Origin: Alphaproteobacteria bacterium
Lineage (GTDB): Bacteria > Pseudomonadota > Alphaproteobacteria > Rhodobacterales > Rhodobacteraceae
Length of the DNA stretch: 64,000 bases
Direction: 5' to 3'
Assembly: GCA_030427145.1 (NCBI GenBank)
Contig: JAUHWT010000005.1
Span: 186,001-250,000 of the forward strand
Shown: in pieces, positions 3,009 through 62,051 of the stretch
Numbering within the stretch: the stretch's first letter is position 1
Layout: each line of letters opens with the position of its first letter
Notes under the pieces: generated by a model
Database searches by the model: none
Told to the model about the DNA's origin: nothing
The model's input: only the letters and a program-made list of their open reading frames with translations
Translations under genes and position numbers: made by a program

Positions 3009-3803
3009 ATGGAAAACGAAGCTGTCATTCGTCTGGGTGTGTTTCTGGGACTGTTTGTCATTCTGGCATCGGTGGAGACCTTTGCTCCCCGGCGGCCCCG
3101 CAAACAGACCAGGGCGCGGCGCTGGTTCACAAACTGGGGCATCGTCATTTTGGACAGCCTGACGCTCCGCCTGATGGCTTTTGCCCTGCCACTCCTGGCG
3201 GTAGGGGCAGCGCTTGACGCATCGGCGCGCGGCTGGGGGCTGTTCAACGCGCTCGACTGGCCGCAGGCGGTTGAGGTTCTGATCTGTGTGCTCGCCCTGG
3301 ATCTCGCCATCTGGGCACAGCATCTGGCAACGCACAAGATACCGCTGCTCTGGCGTCTGCATCAGGTGCATCATGCGGATGTGGATATCGACGTGACCAG
3401 CGCGATCCGGTTTCACCCCATTGAAATCGCTTTGTCGATGCTGCTGAAAATCGGGCTTGTCTACCTTTTGGGCGCGTCGGCGCTGGCCGTCATTCTTTTT
3501 GAGATCATGCTCAATGGTATGGCCATGTTCAATCATTCGAACATTAAACTGCCCGACCGCGTGGACCGGGTGCTGCGCCAGGTGGTGGTGACGCCGGACA
3601 TGCACCGCGTTCACCACTCGGTTCATCGCGACGAGCACGACAGCAATTACGGATTTTCGCTCTCGATCTGGGACCGCATGTTCCGCACCTACATACCGCA
3701 GCCGCGCGAGGGGCATGAAGGGATGAAGACCGGCCTGCGTTGGCAGGATGACCGGCCGGGCCGTTTGGGCTGGTCCCTCATGCTGCCGTTCCGGTCAAAA
3801 TGA
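3009..3803 (+). CDS. Sterol desaturase/fatty acid hydroxylase family membrane protein
   Basis: This 264-residue membrane enzyme belongs to the fatty acid hydroxylase superfamily, di-iron proteins that hydroxylate or desaturate lipids. Histidine boxes are in family order: HLATH (105-109), LHQVHH (118-122), FHP (135-137), FNHSN (175-179) and HRVHH followed by H206 and H210. Hydrophobic segments lie near 8-24, 52-70, 88-105 and 145-172. The substrate cannot be read from the sequence; ornithine lipid, carotenoid or fatty acid are possible. Its stop overlaps the start of the ferredoxin-like gene by ATGA, so the two are translationally coupled. Confidence 0.88.
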   Translation: MENEAVIRLGVFLGLFVILASVETFAPRRPRKQTRARRWFTNWGIVILDSLTLRLMAFALPLLAVGAALDASARGWGLFNALDWPQAVEVLICVLALDLAIWAQHLATHKIPLLWRLHQVHHADVDIDVTSAIRFHPIEIALSMLLKIGLVYLLGASALAVILFEIMLNGMAMFNHSNIKLPDRVDRVLRQVVVTPDMHRVHHSVHRDEHDSNYGFSLSIWDRMFRTYIPQPREGHEGMKTGLRWQDDRPGRLGWSLMLPFRSK

Positions 3804-4453
3804 ATCTGACGGAAATTACGGAAGCCGCGAACAATAGCGGGCTCGATGTGCTCGGCGTTTTTCATGTGCGGGATGATGACCCCGTTCCAGAGGGTTCAAA
3901 GAGTATGGTCATGCTCGGGCCAAACGGACGTGAATTCTGGGATGTCTTTAGCGCCTCGGCGGAATACCTGGACGGTCAGGCGGACCCGGTGGACAGATGG
4001 TCCCTGCGCGTCATCGGAGGGCTGGCGGACAACCTCGGGGGCAGCGCTCTTTTTCCCTTTGGGGGCCCGCCCTGGCTTCCGTTCATTTCCTGGGCACAAC
4101 GGGCCGGAGCCTGGTCATCGCCGGTCGGGCTCCTTGTCCATCACCGCTACGGGCTCTTCGTCTCCTATCGCGGGGCCCTCGCGTTACCTTACGAAATCGA
4201 CATTCCGGCTGAGCCCGTCCGACCGTGCGACACCTGCGGGAAGCCCTGTCTGACCGCCTGTCCCGTTTCGGCATTAACGGAGGACGGTTATGACACTGAG
4301 GCCTGCCACGCCTGGCTCGATCAGCCGGAGGGACACGATTGCATGTCGAGGGGCTGCGCCGTGCGCCGCGCCTGTCCGGTCGGACAATATCGACGGCAGG
4401 ACGCACAATCAGCCTTCCACATGGCCGCATTTCATGGCACGGAAGGCACATGA
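3800..4453 (+). CDS. 4Fe-4S ferredoxin-like protein
   Basis: This 217-residue protein carries one clear iron-sulfur motif, CxxCxxxCxxxCP, at C143, C146, C150 and C154, followed by further cysteines at C169, C181, C186 and C192 that could bind a second cluster (GCAVRRACPVG resembles the end of a second set). The arrangement resembles the C-terminal half of epoxyqueuosine reductase-type proteins, but the B12-binding part is absent. The N-terminal 140 residues show no motif I recognise. It overlaps the hydroxylase upstream and the phosphatase downstream by 4 bases each, so it may be an electron donor or partner of one of these. Role inferred only from context. Confidence 0.8.
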   Translation: MNLTEITEAANNSGLDVLGVFHVRDDDPVPEGSKSMVMLGPNGREFWDVFSASAEYLDGQADPVDRWSLRVIGGLADNLGGSALFPFGGPPWLPFISWAQRAGAWSSPVGLLVHHRYGLFVSYRGALALPYEIDIPAEPVRPCDTCGKPCLTACPVSALTEDGYDTEACHAWLDQPEGHDCMSRGCAVRRACPVGQYRRQDAQSAFHMAAFHGTEGT

Positions 4454-4956
4454 AACGTCTTATTCTCGTACGACATGCCAAGTCGAGCTGGGTCAATCCC
4501 GACCAGCGCGACATCGACCGCCCGCTGAACAAACGTGGTGTCCGCAGTGCCGGCCTGATCGGCCGCTGGCTGAAGAAAAAAGGCCACCTGCCCCAGAATG
4601 CGGTGGTTTCGTCAGCGCAGAGGACACGCCAGACGTGGGATGGCATTACGGCTGAGATCGGCGAGGTTCCGGCGGAATATTCACCGGAACTCTACCACTG
4701 CACCGCGGAAAAAATTCTTGAGCACCTGCGCGGGCAAACAGCTGACACGGTTCTGCTTCTGGCCCATCAGCCTGGGATAGGGGATTTCGCCCAGCGCGCC
4801 CTGCCCGAGCATCCCAAAGACGGGGAGTTCCATCGTTATCCAACCGGAGCAACGTCCATCATCGATTTCGATGTGAAGAACTGGTCGAAAATCGATTGGG
4901 AAAGTGGCGTTCTTGTCGACTTCATCTATCCGCGGGCGCTCGATAAATCGCGTTAG
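4450..4956 (+). CDS. SixA-type histidine phosphatase
   Basis: This 168-residue protein is a small histidine-phosphatase-superfamily member like SixA, which in E. coli removes phosphate from phosphohistidine proteins. The catalytic RHA motif is at residues 8-10 (LILVRHAKSSW), the second Arg is in SSAQRTRQTW, and the second catalytic His is in LLLAHQPGIGDF. The start at 4450 gives an ATGA overlap with the ferredoxin-like gene; longer readings would run through that gene in another frame. The substrate is unknown. It sits third in a run of four co-directional genes with almost no spacing. Confidence 0.9.
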   Translation: MKRLILVRHAKSSWVNPDQRDIDRPLNKRGVRSAGLIGRWLKKKGHLPQNAVVSSAQRTRQTWDGITAEIGEVPAEYSPELYHCTAEKILEHLRGQTADTVLLLAHQPGIGDFAQRALPEHPKDGEFHRYPTGATSIIDFDVKNWSKIDWESGVLVDFIYPRALDKSR

Positions 4957-4971
4957 GGCAACAGGGGTTTC

Positions 4972-6174
4972 ATGAAACCTCCCAAAACCTGTGACACCCT
5001 GATCATCGGCGCCGGGGCGGCTGGAATGATGTGCGCGGCCCATGCGGCGGCACGCGGCGCCCACGTGGCCCTGATCGATCATGCCAAATCGCCTGGAGAG
5101 AAGATCCGTATCTCCGGCGGGGGGCGGTGTAATTTCACCAACCTGAACTGTGGGCCAGGCAATTTTATCTCCCGCAACCGCCACTTCGCCAAATCGGCGC
5201 TGCGCCGGTATACCCAACACGATTTTGTGGCTCTTGTTCGCGACTACGGCATTGCCTTCCACGAGAAGAAACTCGGCCAGCTTTTTTGCGACAGTTCCGC
5301 GAGGGACATCATCTCCATGCTGCGCCAGGAGATGGAAAAAACCGGCGCGCAACTCATCCTGAACTGTCCCGTGCAGGACGTGCAGCGCAGTGGCGACGGC
5401 TGGGCAGTATCCACGGGACAGGGGCAAATCACCTGCCGGCATCTGGTGATCGCGACGGGAGGCAAATCCATTCCCAAAATGGGCGCAACGGATTTCGGTT
5501 ACCGGATTGCGACGAAGTTCGGGCTGGATATCGTGCCCACGGCAGCGGGGCTCGTGCCTCTCACATTCGGGCCTGATTTTCTCGACAGTTTCAAACCACT
5601 AGCCGGTGTGGCGCTCGACGCGCGTGCCAGTAGTGGCCGGACCGCGTTTGAAGAAGCGGTCTTATTCACCCACCGCGGGCTTTCCGGCCCGGCGATTCTG
5701 CAGATCTCCTCATATTGGCACGAAGGCGATCCGTTTCAGATCGATCTCCTGCCCGGCCATGACGCCTTCGAACTCTTGCGTCGCGACCGGCAGGCCCAAG
5801 GAGGCAAGACGCTTTCGAATGTCCTTGCCCGGCATCTGCCCAACCGCCTGGCCGCACATCTTGGGGAAGGCCACGGCCGTATCGGCGACCTCGGCAACGA
5901 CCGTTTGCGCGTGATTGCGGACGATCTGAACCGCTGGGTTATCCGGCCCACGGGTTCGGAAGGCTACCGCACCGCCGAGGTTACCCTGGGCGGCGTCGAC
6001 ACGAGGGGGCTCAATTCAAACACAATGGAAGCGACCTCTGTCCCCAATCTCTATTTCATCGGAGAGGTTGTGGATGTGACCGGCTGGCTCGGTGGTTACA
6101 ACTTCCAGTGGGCCTGGTCCTCCGGCTGGGCGGCGGGCACGGCCATCGCTGAAAAGTGCCAAGCCGCGCTGTAG
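4972..6174 (+). CDS. HI0933/YhiN family FAD-dependent flavoprotein
   Basis: This 400-residue protein is a flavoprotein of the HI0933/BaiN family. The FAD Rossmann motif is at about 10-20 (LIIGAGAAGMM), followed by the family signature SGGGRCNFTN near residue 50 and the C-terminal FAD-closing motif GYNFQWAWSSGWAAG. Length is normal for the family. The physiological reaction of this family is poorly defined in Proteobacteria; one gut homologue (BaiN) acts on bile-acid intermediates, which should not be transferred here. It follows the phosphatase gene by 15 bases and is probably the last gene of the cluster that starts at 3009. Confidence 0.92.
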   Translation: MKPPKTCDTLIIGAGAAGMMCAAHAAARGAHVALIDHAKSPGEKIRISGGGRCNFTNLNCGPGNFISRNRHFAKSALRRYTQHDFVALVRDYGIAFHEKKLGQLFCDSSARDIISMLRQEMEKTGAQLILNCPVQDVQRSGDGWAVSTGQGQITCRHLVIATGGKSIPKMGATDFGYRIATKFGLDIVPTAAGLVPLTFGPDFLDSFKPLAGVALDARASSGRTAFEEAVLFTHRGLSGPAILQISSYWHEGDPFQIDLLPGHDAFELLRRDRQAQGGKTLSNVLARHLPNRLAAHLGEGHGRIGDLGNDRLRVIADDLNRWVIRPTGSEGYRTAEVTLGGVDTRGLNSNTMEATSVPNLYFIGEVVDVTGWLGGYNFQWAWSSGWAAGTAIAEKCQAAL

Positions 6175-6262
6175 AAATCCTGAGAGATCTGGCCGAAAAA
6201 CAACCTTTGAAAACATGATGCTTTACGGCATAAGCACGGCACCCTGAATTGAGGACCAGAAA

Positions 6263-7555
6263 ATGCACGATATACGCGCAATTCGCGAGACACCGGACGC
6301 ATTCGATGCGGCTTTGAGACGACTGGGCGCACAGCCCATGTCCGAAACAATTCTGTCTCTGGACGAATCGCGCCGGTCCAAAATCCGGGCGGCGGAACAG
6401 GCACTTGCCGACCGCAACGCCGCGTCAAAGCAGGTGGGTGCCGCCAAAGCCCGTGGGGACGAGGATGAGTTCCAGCGGCTGCGTGCCATCGTTCAGGACA
6501 GCAAGACGGAAATCGCCCGCCTGGAGGAAGAGGCAAAGACCGAGGACACACGGCTGAACGAGCTGCTCATGGGCCTGCCCAACCTGCCGATGGATGATGT
6601 TCCGGACGGTGAGGACGAAAACGACAACGTGGAAATCCACCGCTGGGGCAACCCGCGCAATTTCGATTTCGATCCGGTGGAGCATTTTGAAATCCCAGGC
6701 GCAAAGCCCGGTTTCGATTTCGACGCCGCGGGCCGCCTTTCGGGGAGCCGGTTCGTGGTTTTGAAAGGCGCTATGATCCGTCTGCACCGTGCGCTCGCGC
6801 AGTTCATGCTCGACACCCATGTCGACACTCATGGCCTGACTGAGGTCTGGACACCCGTGCTCGTGCGCGAGGAAGCGATGTACGGCACTGGACAGTTGCC
6901 GAAGTTTGGCGAGGACAGCTATCAGACCACCAATGGCTGGTGGCTGATTCCGACGTCCGAGGTCACGCTGACAAACCTTGTGGCGGGCCAGATCCTTGAG
7001 GATGCGCAGCTGCCAATGCGAATGACCACGCACAGCCAATGCTTCCGCTCGGAAGCGGGCAGCGCCGGACGCGATACAGCCGGAATGCTGCGTCAGCATC
7101 AGTTCGAGAAGGTCGAAATGGTTTCGATCACGCGCCCGGAAAACAGCCGCGCGGAACTCGACCGGATGACGGAATGCGCCCAGGCCATTCTGGAGGCGCT
7201 GGAACTGCCCTACCGAACGGTGGTTCTTGCCACGGGGGATATGGGTTTCGGATCAAGGCGCACCCACGACATTGAGGTCTGGCTGCCCGGACAGAACACC
7301 TATCGCGAGATCAGTTCCTGCTCCGTCTGCGGCGATTTTCAGGCCCGTCGCATGAACGCCCGTTTCCGCCGCGAGGAAGGAGCAAAACCGGAATTCGTCC
7401 ACACGCTCAACGGCTCCGGCGTTGCGGTCGGTCGCTGTCTGATTGCGGTTCTGGAAAATGGCCAGCAGGCGGATGGTTCGATCACGCTGCCTGCGGCGTT
7501 GCACCGCTATCTCGGCGGCAAGACGGGCATTAACGCGGATGGCAACCTGATCTGA
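6263..7555 (+). CDS. serS: Seryl-tRNA synthetase
   Basis: SerS charges tRNA-Ser (and tRNA-Sec) with serine in the cytoplasm. The 430-residue protein has the N-terminal antiparallel coiled-coil arm (about 30-100, rich in Arg, Ala and Glu) that grips the long variable arm of tRNA-Ser, then a class II catalytic core with motif 2 ([20 protein letters not shown]) and motif 3 ([19 protein letters not shown]). The start is the first ATG and is followed by the usual [11 protein letters not shown] beginning. The gene stands alone, with an 88-base upstream gap containing no sign of a T-box, and its end faces the DUF2306 gene. Confidence 0.97.
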
Positions 7556-7602
7556 ACGGACACTTGGAGGCGGTCGGCGGGACATCGCGCCGTACGCACC
7601 CG

Positions 7603-8226
7603 TCACTCCAGACTGCGCGCGATCGGCACCGGTCGGCGCCGGATAAGCCATTGCGCAAGGACAAGGTTCGGCAGCCAGCACAACCAGGCAACCCAGTTCG
7701 ACGCCTCGGCATATGTCATTCCGAACCCGAAAAAGAAAACCGGCAGCATCAACCGGAGGGTCACCGCCGCAAATGTGAGCGCGAAGGAACGCATCATCCA
7801 TTTGCGGTGTTCGCTGAAGTTGCGCGTCCGTGCCTGAAATATCCCAAACGCCGTCGTTGCCAACCAGGCCAGAGCAAGCGTCCCGAAACCGAGCGCGGCA
7901 ACAGGCCGGTTCGCGGCGCCCCCCACTGACAGCACCAGGCCACCCACACCTCCGGCCAGAACCACAAATCCGTAAATGCGCCCGTTCCAGCGGTGCAACC
8001 AGGGGCGGCCTGTCCGAAGTTCCGGGAAAAACTGCATCGCCCCGGTCGCCAGCGCCACTGGTGCGGCAACCACATGAGCGGCAAACGCCGTCCCGCGCAG
8101 ATCAATATGCCCGATCATGTCCGGGAACGCGCCCGACAGTCCAAGTGCCACAAACCTGTAGGAAACCAGCGCCACCAGAAAACTGAGCGCAGCCATAAGT
8201 CGCATGGGGAAAAGCGCGGGTTTCAT
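7603..8226 (-). CDS. DUF2306 family membrane protein
   Basis: This 207-residue integral membrane protein matches the DUF2306 pattern: about five or six hydrophobic segments, a conserved His in the second (FAAHVVAAP), the motif RPWLHRWNGRIYGF between helices, and NFSEHRKWMMRSFALT near the fourth. The histidines could bind haem or metal, but the family is uncharacterised. It is transcribed divergently from the TetR regulator at 8305, and the gap between them holds two matched inverted repeats. The likely reading is that the TetR protein represses this gene and itself. The signal the regulator responds to is unknown. Confidence 0.85.
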   Translation of the reverse strand: MKPALFPMRLMAALSFLVALVSYRFVALGLSGAFPDMIGHIDLRGTAFAAHVVAAPVALATGAMQFFPELRTGRPWLHRWNGRIYGFVVLAGGVGGLVLSVGGAANRPVAALGFGTLALAWLATTAFGIFQARTRNFSEHRKWMMRSFALTFAAVTLRLMLPVFFFGFGMTYAEASNWVAWLCWLPNLVLAQWLIRRRPVPIARSLE

Positions 8227-8241
8227 GGTCGAACCTCCATC

Positions 8242-8285
8242 AACTTGACAGTGTCAATATTGGATTTACTTGACACTGTCAAGTT
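8242..8285. promoter_or_regulatory. Double TetR-type operator between divergent genes
   Basis: Two 16-bp sequences, AACTTGACAGTGTCAA (8242-8257) and TTGACACTGTCAAGTT (8270-8285), are exact reverse complements of each other, 28 bp apart centre to centre. Each is itself a palindrome (TTGACA-N-TGTCAA). This is the form expected for two operator sites for a dimeric TetR repressor. The right site ends 19 bases before the regulator's ATG, the left site 15 bases before the membrane protein's ATG, so both could be blocked together. Assignment to the neighbouring TetR is inferred from position. Confidence 0.85.
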
Positions 8286-8304
8286 ATTTGGGGAAACGGG
8301 CCTT

Positions 8305-8904
8305 ATGACCGCATCAACCGACAAAAAACCGCATCATCATGGAGACCTCCGACGCGCCCTTGTGAAAGCCGGCATGGAACTGATCCGGGAAAAGGGCCGC
8401 GCCGGCCTGAGCCTTCGGGCCTGCGCGGCGCGGGTTGGCGTGTCCCACGCGGCGCCAAAACACCATTTCGGCAACCTGTCAGGCCTGCTCGGCGCCATCG
8501 CGCTTCAGGGCTTCGAGGATTTTTCGAAAAGCATGATTGAAGCGCGGGAAAAGGCCAGCGGCAATCCCCGCGACCGCCTGATTGCAATCGCGCACGGATA
8601 CGAAGCGTTTGCGGAGGAAAACCCCGACCTGCTTCAGCTCATGTTCAGCGGCGAGGTCACATTTCCCGACACGCCACGTCTGCAACCTCCCGCCTTTGAC
8701 GTTCTGGTGGAACCCTGTGCCCCGTTTGAACCGGTATCCGACACACCTTACAGCACCGAGATCATGATCTGGTCCCTTGTCCACGGGCTGGTGATGCTCG
8801 GCCGGGGTCGCGGGTTTTCGCCCGCGAAATTGCCAGGCGGCAGACCCTCGTTCGCCGATATTCTGCCCGATCTGAAATTGCGCGATCCTGAAAGTCGAAA
8901 CTGA
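8305..8904 (+). CDS. TetR/AcrR family regulator
   Basis: This 199-residue protein is a TetR-type transcription regulator. The N-terminal helix-turn-helix is clear at about 10-55 (GDLRRALVKAGMELI, then GLSLRACAARVGVSHAAPKHHFG), and the C-terminal part resembles the WHG-type ligand domain (IAIAHGYEAFAEENPDLLQLMFSG). The reading frame is open further upstream, but the ATG at 8305 gives a normal N-terminus and leaves the operator pair outside the coding region. It probably represses itself and the divergent DUF2306 gene. Its ligand cannot be predicted from sequence. Confidence 0.93.
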   Translation: MTASTDKKPHHHGDLRRALVKAGMELIREKGRAGLSLRACAARVGVSHAAPKHHFGNLSGLLGAIALQGFEDFSKSMIEAREKASGNPRDRLIAIAHGYEAFAEENPDLLQLMFSGEVTFPDTPRLQPPAFDVLVEPCAPFEPVSDTPYSTEIMIWSLVHGLVMLGRGRGFSPAKLPGGRPSFADILPDLKLRDPESRN

Positions 8905-8908
8905 AAAA

Positions 8909-9910
8909 TCAGACCGCCGCAGCCAGTTCTTTCAGATCCGACAGCACTTCGGCGGCCATATTGAACGACCGCACCCGTGCCTCATGATCGTGGATCATGC
9001 CCGTAACCATCAGTTCATCCGGCTGATACCGCTCGACAATCCATCGAAGCTGATCCCTGACCGTCGCCTTTGACCCGGTGGCCGAACAGGACAGAGCGTG
9101 GTTGACCTGTTCCAGCACCATCGGCGGCACCTCTTCGGTCACGTCGTCAACCGGCTTCGGTAGCGGTCCGGGATTGCCCGTGCGCAGGCGCGAAAACGCG
9201 AGGATCTGGGAAGAGCGCAACCGGTTTGCCTCCGCGTCTGTCTCCGCCGCGCAAACGCCAGCCGCGACCATCAGATACGGCCGCGACAGTGTCTTGGACG
9301 GGCGAAATGTCGTGCGATACATGGTTATGGCCTGCTCCAGCATCGCCGGTGCAAAATGCGACGCAAACGCGTAGGGCAAACCGAGATAGGCCGCCAACTG
9401 CGCTCCGTAGAGGCTCGATCCCAGGATCCACACCGGCACATGCGTCCCGGTGCCGGGAACAGCACGCACCGGACCGGGGTCATCCCCGAAGTACTCCATC
9501 AATTCCTGGACATCCTGCGGGAACGTGTCTTCCTGGGACAGGTTGCGACGCAGCGCACGGGCGGTCGGCATATCAGTTCCCGGAGCCCTGCCCAGACCAA
9601 GATCAATGCGTCCGGGGTAAAGCGTGGCCAGCGTCCCGAACTGTTCCGCGATCATCAAGGGCGCATGGTTTGGCAGCATGATGCCACCGGCGCCGACCCG
9701 CATGGTCCTCGTGGCACCGGCCACGTGACCGATCACAACGGATGTCGCGGCACTGGCGATGCCAGGCATATTGTGATGTTCCGCCAGCCAGTAGCGGTGA
9801 TAGCCCGCCACTTCAGCCGCACGGGCAAGATCGACCGTGTTTGACAATGCGTCGGACGCGGTGCCGCCCTCCGGGATGGGGGACAGGTCAAGTAATGAAA
9901 AATGCTGCAT
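8909..9910 (-). CDS. LLM class flavin-dependent oxidoreductase
   Basis: This 333-residue enzyme belongs to the bacterial luciferase-like (LLM) family, MsnO8-type subgroup, which uses reduced FMN for monooxygenase-like reactions. Typical features are the N-terminal strand [17 protein letters not shown], the [10 protein letters not shown] motif near residue 45, [20 protein letters not shown] and [12 protein letters not shown] chose the ATG at 9910 because a strong ribosome site (GGAGG) lies 5 bases upstream; the longer reading has no such site. The substrate is unknown. The gene converges with the TetR gene, with 4 bases between their ends. Confidence 0.9.
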
Positions 9911-11125: not shown

Positions 11126-11728
11126 ATGACCGAGATCGACTATTATTACTTTCCACTGTCACCCTACTGCTACGCTGCGGGCCTCGGCCTTGAGGAAATT
11201 GCGGCGCGGCATGGTGCAAAGATCAATTACCGCCCGTTCAATCTGATCCGCCTGTTTCAAGAAACCGGGACGGCGATGCCAAAAGACAGGCCCATTGCGC
11301 GGCAGAAATACCGCCTGAAAGACATTGCACGCTCCGCGAAAATGGCCGGTCTGCCGGTGAACGTTCAGCCCGCGCACTGGCCGACCAATCCGGTACCGGC
11401 CAGCAGCGCCATTATCGTTGCGGACAGTGTAGGCGGAGGCGATACGGGGAAACTGTGCCACGGTTTTTGCCGGGCCGTTTGGGCGGAGGAAAAGAACATC
11501 GCGGATGAGGAAGTGGTCGCCTCATGCCTTGAGGCTGCGGGATTTGACGCCAATCAGGATCCGGCCGCACTTGAGGCCGCTTCAAAGACCATTGAGGCAA
11601 ATACGGATGAAGCCCTGAAAAACCACGTGTTCGGTGCGCCCACGTATATCGTCGGGGATGAACTGTTTTGGGGGAACGACCGCCTGGCGTTCCTCGATGC
11701 CCATCTGGCGGAATTGAAGGCCGGTTAA
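11126..11728 (+). CDS. 2-hydroxychromene-2-carboxylate isomerase family (DsbA-like)
   Basis: This 200-residue protein has the DsbA/kappa-GST thioredoxin fold of the 2-hydroxychromene-2-carboxylate isomerase family. The usual CxxC is replaced by SPYC (PLSPYCYAAGLGLEE, residues about 10-24), as in glutathione-dependent isomerases where a Ser binds the glutathione. FGAPTYIVGDELFWGNDRL near the C-terminus is the cis-Pro region and family signature. The ATG at 11126 follows an AGGAG site. Its reaction here is not known; no naphthalene-degradation genes are nearby. It converges with ycgN, leaving 4 bases between the stops. Confidence 0.85.
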   Translation: MTEIDYYYFPLSPYCYAAGLGLEEIAARHGAKINYRPFNLIRLFQETGTAMPKDRPIARQKYRLKDIARSAKMAGLPVNVQPAHWPTNPVPASSAIIVADSVGGGDTGKLCHGFCRAVWAEEKNIADEEVVASCLEAAGFDANQDPAALEAASKTIEANTDEALKNHVFGAPTYIVGDELFWGNDRLAFLDAHLAELKAG

Positions 11729-11732
11729 AAGC

Positions 11733-12218
11733 TCACCCGAAATCCTCGATGACGTGGTCCTCCCAGTCATCCTCGTCGACCTCATACTCCGGCACGGTTT
11801 TTGCGGGCAGAGATTTGCCCGCCCGTGCCACCGAATTGCGGTCCCCTGAGATTAACGGATGCCACGGTTCCAGGTCGTGGCCATCAAACACCAGACGATA
11901 GGCGCAGGTGTGCGGCATCCACTGCAGCACCTCCTCCATATTGTCACGGGTCAGCACAACGCAGCCTGCCACAAGCTGACGACGCAGCGGGTAGTTTCCA
12001 CACCGGCACGCACCAGTATCGAGGAGCCGGCAGGAGATATTGGTGTAATGCACTTCACCGCTGTCCTCGTCCTCCAGTTTCACAAGACAGCATTTTGCGC
12101 ATCCGTCGCACAGCGCCTCCCACTCCCGACGCGGAAGCTCATCAAGTGGGTACCGCCGCCAGAATTCGGGCCGCAAACCAGTGCGGTCTATTGGATCGCT
12201 GTCATCCTTACGCGTCAT
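11733..12218 (-). CDS. YcgN/UPF0260 family cysteine-cluster protein
   Basis: This 161-residue protein belongs to the YcgN (UPF0260, zinc/iron-chelating) family. Cysteines are arranged as CDGCAKCC near residues 37-44, then C63 in NISCRLL, C70-R-C72 (GACRCGNYP) and one in MPHTCAYRL, consistent with metal binding. The biochemical role is unknown. It overlaps the end of ribF by ATGA and is therefore translationally coupled to it. Confidence 0.9.
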   Translation of the reverse strand: MTRKDDSDPIDRTGLRPEFWRRYPLDELPRREWEALCDGCAKCCLVKLEDEDSGEVHYTNISCRLLDTGACRCGNYPLRRQLVAGCVVLTRDNMEEVLQWMPHTCAYRLVFDGHDLEPWHPLISGDRNSVARAGKSLPAKTVPEYEVDEDDWEDHVIEDFG

Positions 12219-13159
12219 GGCAAAAAGGGCGTTGTGGTGGCGCGCGCCTTTTGCACGTCGAGTGCCATCTGGGATTTCAGTGCCTCGACATCATCAAACT
12301 TCCATTCCGACCGCTGGTAGTCCACCAGTGCTACGGAAACGAGTTCTCCGTAGAGATCACCACTGAAATCCAGCAGATACACTTCAATGTTTGGTGCGTT
12401 TTTCCCAAAGGTGGGCCGTTCGCCAAAGGAGGCCGCACCAGCATAGGTGCCGACATGTGATCCGGTCAGAACATCGACGAGCACGCTGTAGACGCCATAT
12501 TTCGGTATGTGCAGACCGTCCGGATCGAGATTGATGGTGGGAAACCCGAGGTTGCGGCCACGTTTGTCACCGTGCTGGACCTGACCCTCCATCCGGTGCC
12601 AGTGGCCAAGGATACGGCGGGCGGTCGCCGGGTCGCCATCAGCCAGCGCGTTGCGGATGGCTGTCGAGGAATAATCCCCCTCCCCGTCTGAGACAAGTGG
12701 AGCGACCGTGACGTCAAAGCCGAATTTCGCCCCTGCAGTCTTCAGGAAATCAACATCTCCCGTGCGCCCCTTGCCGAACCGGAAATCCGCACCGGCAACC
12801 AGATGCACAATGCCCAGCGCACCAACGAGAATATCCTCTACGAACTGGTCCGCCGTTAGACTGGCAAGATCGGCATTGAAGGGAATTTCATATAGCTGTT
12901 CGACACCAAGCTTCTCAAGACGCCTTGCACGAACATCGGCCGTCATGAGGCGGAACGGCGGTGCGTCCTTTTGGAAAAAGCTGCGCGGATGCGGCTCAAA
13001 CGTCACGACCCCAAACGGGGCGTCATGACTGACGGCCGCGGCGCGGGCGAGAGCCAGTACCGACTGATGGCCGAGGTGAACACCGTCAAAATTACCGATG
13101 GCAACCGCAGCTCCGCGGTCGTCCCAAGACAGGTTTCTGTAGTCAAGCTGTCGTTTCAT
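12215..13159 (-). CDS. ribF: Bifunctional riboflavin kinase/FAD synthetase
   Basis: RibF converts riboflavin to FMN and FMN to FAD. The N-terminal adenylyltransferase domain starts with AIGNFDGVHLGHQSVL (about 20-35) and the C-terminal kinase domain carries GDKRGRNLGFPTINLD. The 314 residues fit the family. The ATG at 13159 is preferred to the longer frame because MKRQLDYRNL begins just before the domain. Downstream it overlaps ycgN by 4 bases; upstream the MaoC gene ends 26 bases away, so the three genes may form one transcript. Confidence 0.95.
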   Translation of the reverse strand: MKRQLDYRNLSWDDRGAAVAIGNFDGVHLGHQSVLALARAAAVSHDAPFGVVTFEPHPRSFFQKDAPPFRLMTADVRARRLEKLGVEQLYEIPFNADLASLTADQFVEDILVGALGIVHLVAGADFRFGKGRTGDVDFLKTAGAKFGFDVTVAPLVSDGEGDYSSTAIRNALADGDPATARRILGHWHRMEGQVQHGDKRGRNLGFPTINLDPDGLHIPKYGVYSVLVDVLTGSHVGTYAGAASFGERPTFGKNAPNIEVYLLDFSGDLYGELVSVALVDYQRSEWKFDDVEALKSQMALDVQKARATTTPFLP

Positions 13160-56441: not shown

Positions 56442-56876
56442 TTATCCACAGTTAACCGGAGGACGAACGGCAATAAACGTCCTTGCCAAGGGGGCACCAT
56501 CCGGGTCCACAATCAGGTCCAGCCGGGACGGCCCAACGCTGACCACCGACGCACGAATTGTGCCTCCGTCTTCCACGTCTTCCCAAACCACGGTGGCCTC
56601 ATCCACCCAGCGCCAGGCCGTCAGGCGAAATGGCCCACCGCAACTGCCATTCATCAATGTCCCGTCCGAAAAGAATGCCAGCACTTCTGCGGCCCGGTCA
56701 GGCTGCGACGCATCCAGCCAAACCCTGTTTTCGACCAGTGCTTCCATACCTTCATTGGATGATCCTACTCCGGGCAAATCGACAGAAGGCACGCGCATGG
56801 AACCGCAGCCCGAAAGGATCAGGAAACCAAAACAGAATAGAAAATATATGCGCAGTGCGATCAAATTGCGGTGCAT
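56442..56876 (-). CDS. Lipoprotein, unknown
   Basis: This 144-residue predicted lipoprotein has a signal sequence ending in the lipobox LSGC (Cys about 24). The mature part has WLDASQPDRAAEVLAFFSDGTLMNGSCGGPFRLTAWRWV, a pattern suggesting a META- or lipocalin-like beta barrel with one disulfide (two Cys), but no family is certain. It is transcribed alone between tRNA-Leu and the kinase-like gene. Confidence 0.8.
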   Translation of the reverse strand: MHRNLIALRIYFLFCFGFLILSGCGSMRVPSVDLPGVGSSNEGMEALVENRVWLDASQPDRAAEVLAFFSDGTLMNGSCGGPFRLTAWRWVDEATVVWEDVEDGGTIRASVVSVGPSRLDLIVDPDGAPLARTFIAVRPPVNCG

Positions 56877-56975: not shown

Positions 56976-57062
56976 TGGTGCGGCTGAGAAGACTCGAACT
57001 TCCACGGGAGTTACCCCACAGCGACCTCAACGCTGCGCGTCTACCAATTCCGCCACAGCCGC
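56976..57062 (-). tRNA. tRNA-Leu (anticodon GAG)
   Basis: An 87-base type II tRNA with a long variable arm and encoded CCA. Acceptor GCGGCTG pairs with CAGCCGC; anticodon stem CAGCG/CGCTG with loop TTGAGGT, anticodon GAG; T-arm contains GTTCGAGTC. It reads CTC and CTT. Confidence 0.97.
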
Positions 57063-57267: not shown

Positions 57268-60165
57268 TCAAGAATCCTCGAGGCTTACCGCTGCCAGATC
57301 CCTGATGCTTCCAGTGTCGGAAATGTCCGTGCCAACAACGAAGATCATTGGTGATTTTTCGTCCTTGCCCTCGTGCAGAAAACGACCGAACGTCAAAAGG
57401 AGTTTTTCACCCCGATGCTTGGTAGCAATGGCAACCTGAACGCGTTTGGAATCAGGCTCTCCTTCGATCAGCTGCCGGTCGACATCTTTCAACATGGGAA
57501 CGTGCTCAGGATCGACAAAATCGTAGTAGTTCTTGCCCTCAGCATCCGCCCTTGTCGTGCCCAGCGACTCGGCCATCTTTTCGCTGATCCGGATGATCGT
57601 GCCATCCGCCGTGTGGTTCATGATATGAAAGCTGGTCTGGTTCAGGATCACGTCCAGTTCCTGAACGATTCCCGGAAAGTCAGACACAACGATCGTTATC
57701 CCAAGAACCTGCCCCTTCATGTCGAAAAATGGCGAGCAGCTCAGCTTGTAACGCACGCCTTCCGAGGAAAATTCCCGCTCAGCCGGCTCACCCAGATGCA
57801 GAGCCTCGCTGCATATCGGCGCGAGCGCCGGGAAATTTTCTGGCAACACGCACTGGCTGACATGCGGCGACGCGATGGGCAGGCTTAGACCATACATTTT
57901 CACGGCAGCATTCGTGGCCTGTGAGACCTGGAGCGCTGTATCGAGGACCAAAATCGACAGAGGTGTGGTCTCGAGAACGGATACAAGTTCACCGGTCCGG
58001 CCACTGAGTTCAGCGGCCGTCACCTGAAGCTCCTCGTTAACGGTGATCAGTTCCTCATTGGTGGACTGCAACTCCTCATTTGAGGTTTCCAGTTCCTCGT
58101 TGGTCGCCTGAAGCTCCTCGTTGGTGGACTGAAGTTCCTCGTTCAGCGACTGAAGTTCCTCATTTGAAGTCTCAAGTTCCTCAATCGTTTGCTGCAGGGC
58201 CTCCCGGGTGGTTGCGACCTCATTTTCCAGCAGATTGATGTGATTGGATACCGGGTCGCCAGTGCCGTCTTCCACGGAAGCAGGGACGGTTTTGGAGAAA
58301 TCAATGGGCGTTTCCCGAATTACAAGCAGAGCAGCCCGCTCGTTAATGTTCTTCGCAACAATCGGATAGGCTTCGAGGCGCACTTCCGCGTCATCGCCGT
58401 TTGCCAGAAGGTGACGGACCCCCACCCTGTGCTCGCCATTTTTGAGAGCCATGGTGATGAGGCTTCTGGCTTCCTCCCGGAGCGGACGGCGCAACAGGTC
58501 GAGATGCATCTTGAGACTGCTGGTCTGATTCATCTCGATATATGGGCTTACGTCGCCGTAAACACGGGCGATCGAGTAATCGTCGGTAACGAGAAGCGAG
58601 TTCTTACCAAGCGACTTCGCTAGAGCTTCGAAAAGCTGCCTGTCAGTTGAGTTCCCGGAGTCCGATGTCTGGTCCCTTGATGGCAGTTGCCGCGACTGAT
58701 TGTTTGCACGAACACGCGAATAGGGCGTGATCTCCGGTCGACGGATCGATCGCTTGCGGTAGATATGCGAGGAGTGCCGCTCGGGGATGAAAAGCTCATC
58801 TGAGCCGGCTACCGTCTCGGCAGTTCCGAGGAACAGGAGCGACGAGTTGGTCATCGCATAGTGGAACCGGGCCATGACCTTCTGTTGCAGGCTGTTGCCG
58901 AAATAGATGAGCAGGTTGCGACAACAGAGAAGATCCACCTTCTGGAACGGCGGATCCTGGCAGACATTGTGATCAGAAAAAAGGATTGCTGACCGAAGTG
59001 AGTCCACGACCCGAACACTGTCCGCCTGACGCACCAGGTACTTATCCGCGAGCTTTTTGGGAATATCGTTCAGAGCGGCCAGGCCGTAAACGCCTTTGCG
59101 CGCAATCTGAATGGCGTCCTTGTCGATGTCCGTGGCAAAAATCTGAACCCGGTCCTTCAGCGACACCTGCGGACCGCCCAGAGCCTCTGACAACAGCATG
59201 GCAATGGAATACGCCTCCTCGCCTGTCGCACATCCTGCGATCCAGACCCGCATCTGGCGGCCACTGCATTTCACGATCAGTTCGGGAATGAGACGTTCGA
59301 GATGCTCGAATTCAGGCTTATCCCTGAAGAACCGCGTCACGGAAATCAGCAGGTCCTTAAACAGCGCATCAACCGCATGGGGATTGTCCCGACAAAAACG
59401 CGTGTATTCCTCCTTCGTGTCGATCCCGAGCGCAATCATACGCCGCTCAATTCGTCGACCAATAGTGGTCTGTTTGTAATCACGGAAATCGACGCGTGTT
59501 CGCGCGAGCAGGATCTGGAGAAGGTCGGAATTCGGCGACTGTTCGAGGTTATCCTTGCGGAACTCGTCAAAATCGCGGGGTGACGTCAGAATTTTCTGCA
59601 GATGGGTTCCGATGGCCTGCGGGCTCAGAATGAGGTCAACGCATCCGGATTGAATGGCCGATGTAGGCATTCCGTCGTACTTTGCAGTCTCCCCATCCTG
59701 AGCGATGGTAATGCCGCCTGCTTCGCGAATCGCCTGTACGCCATACGCGCCGTCGGTTCCCGTTCCCGATAGAATGATCGCCATCGATTTTGCGCCATGC
59801 TTGTCCGCGAGACTGAGCAAAAACCTATCGACCGAAGGCTTGGGCGACGCCACCTCCGAACTTGGATCCACCAGACGCAGACTGGTGCCGTCGTAGATAA
59901 CATCCGTATTTGGCGGTGTAATATAGATGACATTCGGTTCCGGCACGATACCGTCCGTGACGTCCTTCACCTGAAGCGAGGTCTGCCGGCCGACAAGTTC
60001 CGTCATCAGACTTTTGTGATGCGGCGACATGTGCTGCACGACGACATATGATACCGGCAGGTCCACCGGGAGGGTCGAGACAAGTTCGCGTATCGCCTCC
60101 AACCCGCCTGCAGACGAACCGACAGCAATAATTGTTAGCTTTTCCTTAACAGCCGTTTCCAGCAT
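57268..60165 (-). CDS. CheB-CheR-PAS fusion signalling protein
   Basis: This 965-residue cytosolic protein joins a CheB methylesterase domain (about 10-190: GSSAGGLEAI with S17/S18, VVQHMSPHH, LSGTGTDGAYG), a CheR methyltransferase domain (about 205-480: DYKQTTIGRRIERRM, IAGCATGEEAYS), a PAS-like region, a coiled coil of seven exact heptads (NEEL repeats, about 665-712) and two further PAS domains. It ends after the last PAS without the histidine kinase that many such fusions carry. There are no other chemotaxis genes, so it probably signals in another pathway. It is divergent from the unknown paralogue pair. Confidence 0.9.
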   Translation of the reverse strand: MLETAVKEKLTIIAVGSSAGGLEAIRELVSTLPVDLPVSYVVVQHMSPHHKSLMTELVGRQTSLQVKDVTDGIVPEPNVIYITPPNTDVIYDGTSLRLVDPSSEVASPKPSVDRFLLSLADKHGAKSMAIILSGTGTDGAYGVQAIREAGGITIAQDGETAKYDGMPTSAIQSGCVDLILSPQAIGTHLQKILTSPRDFDEFRKDNLEQSPNSDLLQILLARTRVDFRDYKQTTIGRRIERRMIALGIDTKEEYTRFCRDNPHAVDALFKDLLISVTRFFRDKPEFEHLERLIPELIVKCSGRQMRVWIAGCATGEEAYSIAMLLSEALGGPQVSLKDRVQIFATDIDKDAIQIARKGVYGLAALNDIPKKLADKYLVRQADSVRVVDSLRSAILFSDHNVCQDPPFQKVDLLCCRNLLIYFGNSLQQKVMARFHYAMTNSSLLFLGTAETVAGSDELFIPERHSSHIYRKRSIRRPEITPYSRVRANNQSRQLPSRDQTSDSGNSTDRQLFEALAKSLGKNSLLVTDDYSIARVYGDVSPYIEMNQTSSLKMHLDLLRRPLREEARSLITMALKNGEHRVGVRHLLANGDDAEVRLEAYPIVAKNINERAALLVIRETPIDFSKTVPASVEDGTGDPVSNHINLLENEVATTREALQQTIEELETSNEELQSLNEELQSTNEELQATNEELETSNEELQSTNEELITVNEELQVTAAELSGRTGELVSVLETTPLSILVLDTALQVSQATNAAVKMYGLSLPIASPHVSQCVLPENFPALAPICSEALHLGEPAEREFSSEGVRYKLSCSPFFDMKGQVLGITIVVSDFPGIVQELDVILNQTSFHIMNHTADGTIIRISEKMAESLGTTRADAEGKNYYDFVDPEHVPMLKDVDRQLIEGEPDSKRVQVAIATKHRGEKLLLTFGRFLHEGKDEKSPMIFVVGTDISDTGSIRDLAAVSLEDS
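58028..58174 (-). repeat. Tandem 21-bp repeat encoding NEEL heptads
   Basis: Seven 21-base units inside the CheB-CheR-PAS gene, each encoding x-N-E-E-L-x-x. They form the coiled coil between CheR and the final PAS domains and are a normal part of this protein family. Confidence 0.9.
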
Positions 60166-60395
60166 TTTTCAGGTTCCATCAACATAAGAGAATTCAACCC
60201 TAACGGGTTCAACCGCAATTGTCCTCTAAAATAAGGGGTTTTTGCCCCTCCCGGTCTTAATCAAATCCAAGGCAGCCAAACAACCGCGTTTTGCTGCACC
60301 TGCGTCAGCACAGGCTTTCGTTTACCATTTGTCAATAAAATCCCCATAAGACTAAATCTCCTAAAATTTTGTTCGAATTGCGAAGGACGGACATT

Positions 60396-61100
60396 GTGAC
60401 TTCAGACCTGACTTCGAATGACAAGCCACGTTACCTCACCCTCAATTTATTTCTGCGGGATGACGGCGGCATAAATGTACGATCCTGCGAAGTCGTGGGG
60501 CCCGGGTTTCGTAATCGAACGTCGTTTCAGGGCAAAAGCGAACTCGACCATGTCTTGGTATCCGAACTTTCTGGCGCGATTAGCAGCTGTCTGGATAAAA
60601 TCAAGGACGGCTCGCGGGCGCTCTCGCTGCCAGATTTTGTGGTCGAAATGCCCGGCCTGATTCTGGCCGGCGTAAGGGTTTTCGTGTCGCTGGCAGTCGA
60701 CGGTGTGAAAAACGTCATCTTCCGGTTCCTTGAGTTTGTTGGGGGCATCAACCACGCTTTTAAGGCGAGCGTTGGTCTCGAGATGTCCGCGACGAGCCAG
60801 ATGGAACGTCTGGCAATGAACATATTGTCCGACCTTTGCCTGCCACTCCTTAACCTCTGCAAGGCAGCGGAACTGGCTCAAATTGGTGATAACAGCCGCA
60901 TGTGCAAATATCTGGTGGAGCGGGCCAACGAAGTGGAGTTCCAGGCCGAACTTCTCAAACGGTTCGTTTTCAACAGTAGCGAGCCGGAACGGGTGGCGAT
61001 CAGCTCTTCAAGCGATTCGCGTCGGCGAAGCCGACCTTTGCAGCGCAGTGCGCAAAATCAGGTGCTGCACGAGGACGGCGAAATTCTGACCGACCAATGA
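60396..61100 (+). CDS. Unknown protein, paralogue A of a pair
   Basis: This 234-residue soluble protein belongs to no family I recognise. It begins (after a short polar N-terminus) with RYLTLNLFLRDDGGINVRS, then alternating strands and helices including PDFVVEMPGLILAGVRVFVS and IFRFLEFVG, a helical part (MERLAMNILSDLCLPLLNLC) and ends in a basic Ser/Arg tail (SDSRRRSRPLQRS). There is no signal peptide or membrane segment. It matches the next gene over about 185 residues, roughly half identical by eye. Start GTG at 60396 with AAGGACGG before it. Divergent from the CheB-CheR-PAS gene across 230 bases. Confidence 0.8.
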   Translation: MTSDLTSNDKPRYLTLNLFLRDDGGINVRSCEVVGPGFRNRTSFQGKSELDHVLVSELSGAISSCLDKIKDGSRALSLPDFVVEMPGLILAGVRVFVSLAVDGVKNVIFRFLEFVGGINHAFKASVGLEMSATSQMERLAMNILSDLCLPLLNLCKAAELAQIGDNSRMCKYLVERANEVEFQAELLKRFVFNSSEPERVAISSSSDSRRRSRPLQRSAQNQVLHEDGEILTDQ

Positions 61101-61264
61101 TCCATTCGGTTTAGGACAAACTTTTTTTCCATTTTGTATTATGGCGTGGCGGCAGTTTTCTAATTCCTCCCGCGCACATTGTTGTGCCCGCAAAATGGCC
61201 GGCTCCCCCCTTCAGTCCTGTATCCAAGGCGTACGAAAAAACCGTACGGTTTTGATTTGCGAAC

Positions 61265-61296
61265 CCCAACTCTCTCAAAAATTTGAGACACTTGGG
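61265..61296. promoter_or_regulatory. Large dyad between the paralogous genes
   Basis: CCCAA-CTC-TCTCAAA-AA-TTTGAGA-CAC-TTGGG is symmetrical over 32 bases with only a 3x3 internal mismatch. It lies 99 bases before paralogue B and could be an operator or a stable leader hairpin. A second dyad, CGTACG-N7-CGTACG with a T-rich tail, lies at about 61228-61250 and may end paralogue A. The rest of this 294-base gap is AT-rich and has no gene. Confidence 0.5.
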
Positions 61297-61394
61297 CTAA
61301 TCGCGGCTGCGGCGTTTATCTTTTGTAAACCAATTTAAAATAATTCCTAACATCGCATGAACAACATCTTAACAGCACGGAAGGGGCGGAACCG

Positions 61395-62051
61395 TTGGAC
61401 GTAGAAAACCATAACAGGGTGTCCGGGCGCTATATCACTCTGAACCTCGCCCTGAAGGATGATGAGAACATTGAGGTGCTGTCCTACGATGTGTTCACGG
61501 GCGGATTTCACAACACGACAATGTTCAACAAAAACAGCACCATCGATGAAGTCCTGGTCGATGAGCTTGCCAGTGCGATCAAGTACTGCACCAGACGCCT
61601 GAACGACGACCTGCAAATGCTGGTGTTACCGGACTTTCTGATTCAGATGCCCGGACTGGTCCTGTCCGGAGCCCGCGTCATCATATCGCAAACCAGAGAT
61701 GGCGCACGGACAGTCATTTTCCGGTTTAAGGATTTTGTTGGAAACGTTGCGGGCGCCTTCAAGAAAAATGTGGGGCTCGCATTGTCGGACACCAGCCAAT
61801 TCGAGTTGATGGCCGTCGACATTCTCTCAGATATCTGCAGCCCGCTCATTGATCTTTGCACCCGTCCGGAAGTTACCCAGGTGGGCCGCCAGAGCGGTGT
61901 TGGAAAGCAACTGTCCAGCATCGCGGCGGAAATAGAGTTTCAGCTCGATTTACTACGGCGTTTCGTGTTCCCGGAACCTCCTGCAGCAAAAAAGGCCCAG
62001 CGACGGCCACAGTTGGCATATCAACAGCAGGAGGCCCACCACGCGGGCTGA
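61395..62051 (+). CDS. Unknown protein, paralogue B of a pair
   Basis: This 218-residue soluble protein is the second copy of the family seen at 60396: RYITLNLALKDDENIEVLS, PDFLIQMPGLVLSGARVII, VIFRFKDFVGNVAGAFKKNV and IEFQLDLLRRFVF line up with the first copy. The tail is Ala/Gln/Lys-rich (PAAKKAQRRPQLAYQQQ) and not related. The most likely start is a TTG at 61395 behind AAGGGGCGG; no ATG fits. No cysteine pair or metal motif is apparent. The gap in front of it has its own dyads, so it may be separately regulated. Function unknown. Confidence 0.8.
   Translation: MDVENHNRVSGRYITLNLALKDDENIEVLSYDVFTGGFHNTTMFNKNSTIDEVLVDELASAIKYCTRRLNDDLQMLVLPDFLIQMPGLVLSGARVIISQTRDGARTVIFRFKDFVGNVAGAFKKNVGLALSDTSQFELMAVDILSDICSPLIDLCTRPEVTQVGRQSGVGKQLSSIAAEIEFQLDLLRRFVFPEPPAAKKAQRRPQLAYQQQEAHHAG

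Follow-up and report, generated by a model that had tools for sequence, protein, structure and literature searches.

A CheB-CheR-PAS protein and a family of small partner proteins as a candidate signalling unit of Rhodobacteraceae

How might a protein that joins CheB to CheR signal where no chemotaxis gene stands beside it? CheB-CheR-PAS fusions occur in many bacterial genomes and, to our knowledge, chemoreceptors are the targets of CheB and CheR wherever these have been well studied. The question is raised by a locus in a stretch of 64,000 nucleotides (hereafter the window) from an alphaproteobacterium of the family Rhodobacteraceae (GCA_030427145.1, contig JAUHWT010000005.1, positions 186,001 to 250,000), where the gene of a CheB-CheR-PAS protein stands divergent from two paralogous genes. 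We lean, if only slightly, towards reading the three genes as a small signalling unit independent of the chemotaxis array, in which the paralogues are non-kinase output partners. Four observations underlie this view: the paralogues belong to a gene family, this family is conserved next to CheB-CheR genes, the pair is retained without chemoreceptors in three genomes, and the CheB-CheR proteins concerned go with either a partner or a kinase.

The CheB-CheR-PAS protein and an unnamed family beside it

A sequence-only reading of the window had described a 965-residue CheB-CheR-PAS protein without a kinase, and both the open reading frame (ORF; 57268..60165, reverse strand) and Pfam bear this out. 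From its N-terminus, the protein consists of a CheB methylesterase domain (residues 13-188; 59602..60129, reverse strand; PF01339, E 1.2e-53) with no receiver domain detected ahead of it by Pfam, the CheR_N and S-adenosylmethionine-binding CheR domains (residues 215-460; 58786..59523, reverse strand; PF03705 and PF01739, CheR E 9.9e-51), a Glu/Gln-rich coiled coil with NEELQ repeats and weak coiled-coil matches (residues 638-723; 57997..58254, reverse strand), and two PAS domains found with Pfam, namely PAS_10 (residues 729-830; 57676..57981, reverse strand) and a C-terminal one (residues 837-950; 57316..57657, reverse strand). Pfam detected neither HisKA, HWE_HK nor HATPase at E <= 0.001 after CheR. 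CheB and CheR thus share one chain, and their active sites are intact. In 27 CheB-CheR proteins paired with a partner gene (that of the window, those of 24 fetched loci that hold both genes, the window not being counted among them, and those of loci L087 and L089), the CheB residues Ser18, His45 and Asp138 and the CheR residues Arg281, Glu316, Asp346, Asn417 and Tyr421 are kept without exception (27/27). We take the catalytic role of these eight residues to be that of their counterparts in the Salmonella enzymes. Across the same 27 proteins the NEEL repeats of the coiled coil are near-invariant.

On the other strand, beyond an intergenic stretch in which the promoters of the divergent genes presumably lie (60166..60395), are the two paralogues. 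Paralogue 1 (60396..61100, forward strand; 234 residues; model m12e4fa043650) begins with a GTG codon behind GAAGGA, and an in-frame TTG upstream at 60369 would lengthen it to 243 residues. Paralogue 2 (61395..62051, forward strand; 218 residues; model ma41e4e2c0c8d) begins with TTG. The sequence-only reading had aligned them over about 185 residues, and they indeed share 49% identity over residues 11-195 (185 residues, E 7.6e-54). They are the only two matches in their genome at E <= 0.001.

It had also matched the paralogues to no family, a claim borne out in every library searched. Neither protein has a Pfam match above cut-off or any NCBIfam match, and predicted structures compared by Foldseek with the PDB and BFVD gave no match at E <= 0.001, so that neither hidden Markov model libraries nor AlphaFold models yielded a significant family. 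Four weak candidates were dropped, each having been reached from one member only: the Pfam families FANC_SAP (E 0.053) and DUF6206 (E 0.012), PHROG 14971 (E 0.002), which was the best match of 11 members to PHROG, and EfCdnE (E 0.19), the single match of a PDB sequence search that returned none with the alignment as query. The paralogues thus belong to an unnamed protein family, absent from Pfam and NCBIfam, which the present analysis defines. A protein search found relatives in 10 of 198 genomes, the window's genome included. Relatives with a name come from Roseobacter, Sulfitobacter, Shimia and an unclassified Rhodobacteraceae bacterium. Across the first alignment, which had 11 members, identity to paralogue 2 was 22-45%. 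A first scan of contigs with one protein as query returned no match, nor did plasmid records match paralogue 1.

Conserved adjacency, with and without chemotaxis genes

With the alignment as query, partner matches were found in 29 of 394 genomes of the window's bacterial family, the window's genome included. CheB-CheR fusions at E <= 1e-60, of which at most two candidates per genome were scored, occurred in 92 of 388 genomes of the family, and their best matches separate into 30 genomes with E values no higher than 1e-176 and 62 with values of at least 8.5e-142. With fusions of the window's type defined by E < 1e-170, 25 of the 30 genomes that have one are also among the 29 partner genomes (Fisher p 2e-30, the two samples being treated as one and relatedness ignored). 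The four remaining partner genomes are G156, in which the locus is split over fragments, G320, G376 and G293, where the weak match (L069) is unconfirmed, not being upheld by an improved profile; at L066 the ORF obtained is shorter. In a class-wide search of 385 genomes, true partner matches were limited to two genomes, which belong to the window's family. Two further matches, in frames opposite a 440-residue ORF (L095) and a 323-residue ATPase-like ORF (L096), were rejected as spurious.

The two genes are also neighbours. In the first nine other genomes a CheB-CheR gene lay within the same 11-13 kb in every case (9/9), and twenty further regions were fetched, that of G342 being taken again with a longer flank. 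In 23 of the 24 loci that hold both genes, all from the window's family, no more than 0.41 kb separates the CheB-CheR frame from the closest partner frame. Fourteen loci are divergent (including L019, read as such by eye, its open frames overlapping by a few bases), nine have both genes in the same direction, with the partner downstream in eight and upstream in L062, and in one (L092, G342) the genes are about 6.3 kb apart. No CheB-CheR gene was present in the fetched stretches of L059 (the second copy of G328), L064/L094 (G376, a whole 14-kb contig), L067 (G320), L070 (G156, a fragment) and the unconfirmed L069. Among named genomes the divergent pair recurs in 14 of 16 loci with about 0.3 kb between the matches; of the other two, L085 has the pair at a distance and L084 lacks it. 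Three of these named loci (L080, L083 and L085) were taken as the same records as G174, G266 and G342.

When all ORFs of at least 110 residues in the 24 loci were clustered, the CheB-CheR gene recurred in 24 of 24 and the partner in 22 of 24. For four further clusters (22, 11, 7 and 4 loci), the example ORFs overlap with that gene and are read in a different frame from the CheB-CheR protein. A component resembling an ABC ATPase (10/24 loci) is the only other widely recurring neighbour, and the rest of the 25 components listed each occur in three or fewer loci. The pair thus stays together, whereas the arrangement of the genes and most of their surroundings change across loci.

Partner genes also occur in multiple copies. 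In L056 (G328) two tandem partners (5928-6650 and 6784-7470, reverse strand) lie behind the CheB-CheR gene, and in L052 (G260) the CheB-CheR gene (5340-8621) is flanked on both sides by partner-family genes (4496-5218 and 8765-9466). The contig G376:C61 (L094) carries two convergent genes of the family, at 11354-12001 and 12036-12587, the second being a weak match. Directly behind the CheB-CheR gene of L087 (G264) stands a 393-residue open frame (3097-4275, reverse strand) with no Pfam match. Three stretches of it match the partner profile weakly, and it may represent a divergent partner that has been enlarged or duplicated.

Neither chemoreceptors nor CheW had been seen in the window, and the profile searches agree: the window's genome has eight MCPsignal matches on contigs other than C36 and two CheW-domain matches on C27, hence none in the window. 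The same two models were applied to 28 genomes, comprising 26 with a partner match and two with weak partners (G264 and G002), CheA being assessed solely through its CheW-like domain; each search was positive in 7 of 14 control genomes. A match to a methyl-accepting chemotaxis protein (MCP) over cut-off was obtained in 24 of the 28 genomes and a CheW match in 23. Receptor and CheW-domain matches do not accompany the genes wherever these are kept. G145 (99% complete), G149 (99%) and G302 (100%) retain the adjacent pair with no CheW-domain match; the MCP model found nothing in G145 and G302 and, in G149, a single match of 20 bits, under the cut-off of 34.6. G264 likewise gave no CheW match and is 77% complete. 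Of the recurring neighbours listed for the 24 loci, none was recognised as a chemotaxis gene. Because G145, G149 and G302 keep the pair without a receptor match over cut-off and without a CheW match, the unit is not simply one of chemotaxis adaptation. Co-occurrence, adjacency and persistence in these three genomes together support the stand-alone three-gene unit proposed from the sequence. That proposal had been staked on the paralogues having no confident match to an unrelated family and on their co-occurrence with CheB-CheR genes in other genomes; no such family appeared, and the co-occurrence holds.

A partner or a kinase

The relatives of the 965-residue protein that sit beside paralogue homologues are 38-70% identical to it. 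The part following CheR was scanned in the 27 paired proteins and in 44 without a partner (L088, L090, L091 and 41 of 80 more distant matches, mainly from the top of the list). A kinase domain was present at E <= 0.001 in 0 of the 27 paired proteins versus 35 of the 44 unpaired ones (Fisher p 4e-12, relatedness ignored), as HWE_HK in 32 and as HisKA in three (L090, L091 and L118). A quick maximum-likelihood tree, built on the CheB-CheR part, unites the 27 paired proteins with L088, L090 and L091 in one clade (SH-aLRT 99), and the partner label changes three times on it, versus 22 on average in shuffles. The three members of this clade without a partner all have a kinase at hand. In L090 and L091, with which the partner-bearing L068 groups (support 88), HisKA and HATPase domains are fused to the CheB-CheR protein itself. 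In L088 the ORF that follows the CheB-CheR gene, with the same orientation, encodes HisKA and HATPase, as does one upstream of the gene.

Both the gene order and the phylogenetic pattern put the partner where a kinase would be, and its most likely role is therefore that of output module in the kinase's stead. The sequence-only reading had offered the paralogues as outputs, partners, or methylation or demethylation targets of the fusion protein. The output or partner role is favoured because clade members without a paralogue carry a histidine kinase. The target role finds no support, since none of the family's Glu/Gln columns is conserved throughout (69% weighted at most).

The window's genome encodes a second CheB-CheR protein outside the clade (L093, G000:C7:92000-108000; 6732-9275), of 847 residues, with one PAS domain found and no kinase. 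Beside it lies a divergent 765-residue ORF (9809-12106 of L093), identified by eye as hybrid histidine kinase-like, which mirrors the arrangement in the window.

Mechanism, rival readings and known systems

In the signalling unit that we favour, the CheB-CheR-PAS protein would supply both sensor and enzyme. An intracellular cue may be sensed by its PAS domains, and its CheR and CheB sites, judging by their conserved residues, would add and remove methyl groups; we take the fusion as an active methyl writer and eraser because the three CheB and five CheR residues are kept throughout the paired proteins. The methyl acceptor could most plausibly be the fusion's own coiled coil, a better candidate than the partner because its Glu/Gln residues are near-invariant. 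The paralogues would dock on the PAS and coiled-coil half, where most other sampled fusions carry an HWE or HisKA kinase, and the partner may pass the signal by binding rather than by phosphotransfer, as it has no conserved phospho-acceptor. A fuller route, less likely than not, would need neither chemoreceptor nor kinase: the self-contained fusion would set and remove methyl marks, possibly those of its own coiled coil, and a dedicated family of small proteins, perhaps of new fold, would read this state and deliver the output, having displaced the histidine kinase in one clade.

The partner itself was modelled with AlphaFold2 from 19-sequence alignments (predicted local distance difference test, pLDDT, 73.6 and 72.8 for the two paralogues), and the two models agree. 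Strands are predicted at 13-20, 26-35 and 38 to 43-49. A helix follows at about 56-68, then further strands at about 75-85, 88-100 and 105-116 and two long helices at about 132-161 and 167-194, confidence being lower in the helices; the fold resembles a PAS-like beta domain followed by a helical hairpin. The order of strands and helices in the N-terminal half is compatible with a PAS fold, and Pfam gave no PAS match there. Foldseek matches to PAS and PAS-kinase structures recur, all above E 0.001; others listed, likewise below significance, include a pilus-ATPase domain, LOV-kinase structures, flavin-binding proteins, GFP-like barrels and viral sensor kinases. Of all these the PAS-kinase theme alone fits the partner's helix order. 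In the partner alignment (45 rows, four loci being omitted as duplicates), conservation is highest at G116, R110, P150, L90, F111, G103, F44 and R189 (218-residue numbering). Both paralogues are probably, though not certainly, soluble, as mean hydropathy over 19 residues peaks at 1.5 in paralogue 2 and at 1.84 in paralogue 1, the latter in predicted strands.

Among the rival explanations, the one with some real though minor chance is that the partner is a degenerate phospho-acceptor, a HisKA- or ChpT-like four-helix bundle behind a PAS-like domain, acting in a phosphorelay or sequestering kinases or response regulators by dimerisation. The strands-helix-strands and two long helices of both models, the recurring PAS-kinase matches, insignificant as they are, and the partner's position in the genomic place of a kinase all fit it, as does the motif L-x-D-I-x-x-P-L of helix 1, which by reading resembles the H-box H-E-L-R-T-P-L. 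The H-box-like position nevertheless holds histidine in only 1 of 44 rows (alanine in 13, and serine in the two of the window), and no histidine column of the 45-row alignment exceeds 46% weighted. No Foldseek match reaches E 0.001, and hhalign gave a probability below 1% for the partner against either HisKA (20 of the 26 HisKA matches in the window's genome) or ChpT (10 sequences; L138, L143 and L149 of 13 loci were left out, their ORF being missed by a motif filter), versus 94.5% for ChpT against HisKA as positive control. A HisKA or ChpT origin is thus unsupported despite a working control; nor did hhalign match the partner to CheB, CheR_N or the post-CheR part. The single histidine, found in L056, led us to rate this explanation slightly higher and the kinase-free unit slightly lower. 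That the paralogues are instead methylation or demethylation substrates of the CheB-CheR protein, replacing chemoreceptors, is improbable: they are closely paired with intact CheB and CheR active sites, and close relatives conserve the helix 2 Glu residues (E179, E181 and E185), but divergent members replace these, Glu/Gln columns stay at or below 69% weighted over the 45 rows, and the coiled coil of the fusion offers the better candidate.

Still less credit is due to the pair being an accessory of ordinary flagellar chemotaxis, for instance as extra adaptation enzymes for chemoreceptors. The precedent of CheB and CheR speaks for it, as do the chemoreceptor and CheW-domain genes elsewhere in the window's genome and the MCP matches in 24 of 28 genomes; against it are the adjacent pairs of G145, G149 and G302, with neither receptors over cut-off nor CheW-domain matches, and the recurring neighbours listed, which include no chemotaxis gene. 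The least credible reading is that adjacency is merely inherited gene order without functional coupling. All pairs come from one bacterial family and their CheB-CheR proteins from one clade, as it would have it, yet the genes remain neighbours whether they diverge or the partner lies downstream or upstream, even as most of the flanking genes differ, and partner and kinase are mutually exclusive in the clade members examined.

Several observations weigh against the unit of fusion and non-kinase partner. The function of the partner is read from no homologue, and confidence in its model is moderate (mean pLDDT 73, helices about 55-80). One partner, in L056 (5928-6650), does have histidine at the H-box-like position (L-H-D-I-C-I-P). 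Orphan partners exist in G376 (two copies), in G320 and at the second locus of G328, and L084 has a partner with no CheB-CheR gene within its 20 kb. G376 has no CheB-CheR protein at E <= 1e-60 and no MCP or CheW match, and its partner may work alone or with another protein. Among the paired rows, the partner matches of L087 and L089 are very weak (E 0.001 and 1.2), and L092 rests on the partner about 6.3 kb away. Seven unpaired proteins outside the clade (L097, L109, L110, L117 and L133-L135, L135 being judged by counts and motif only) have no fused kinase, so that lack of a kinase requires no partner. Finally, all pairs belong to a single clade within one bacterial family, so that few events (three label changes) may underlie the kinase pattern.

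Fusions of CheB-CheR-PAS to a kinase are a known kind of protein; the separate partner family and the partner-or-kinase pattern appear, from the literature searched, to be new. The CheB-CheR-PAS-HWE kinase fusions of alphaproteobacteria share with the window's protein the order CheB-CheR-coiled coil-PAS and NEEL-type repeats, and 32 of the 44 scanned proteins without a partner, which come from the same bacterial family, carry the HWE kinase. Unlike these fusions, the window's protein stops after its PAS domains and falls into a different clade, and a separate small gene stands at the kinase's place. The partner is comparable to ChpT/HPTransfase (PF10090) and HisKA (PF00512) in its alpha-helical hairpin with a D-I-x-x-P motif and in being a small stand-alone protein that could link sensor to output; it differs from both by its near-total lack of the histidine (1 of 44 rows), the absence of a profile-profile match and the beta domain before its helices. 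With the CheB and CheR of chemotaxis the fusion has in common all eight active-site residues checked, but it is one fused chain, has no CheB receiver and is kept without chemoreceptor matches over cut-off in three genomes. CheR-TPR fusions of the FrzF type combine a methyltransferase with an added domain, often in non-motility pathways, according to PMC3447774. The window's protein is likewise a methyltransferase with an added domain; unlike those fusions, it shows no TPR among the best 25 of 52 families and no chemosensory cluster around its gene.

A literature search covering few subscription journals found no description of the partner family or of its link to CheB-CheR, no partner-or-kinase pattern, and no account of what CheB-CheR-PAS fusions methylate or how they signal; neither the family nor the pattern is described in passages of PMC6194562, PMC3447774 and PMC7020829. 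A clade with a small protein at the kinase's place reduces the matter to a two-protein biochemical question: does the fusion methylate itself or its partner, and is the partner the reader?

Downstream of the CheB-CheR stop codon in the window lie a tRNA-Leu (gag) gene (56976-57062, reverse strand), a possible integration point, and beyond it a 144-residue ORF (56442-56876, reverse strand), lipoprotein-like by eye and with no Pfam match.

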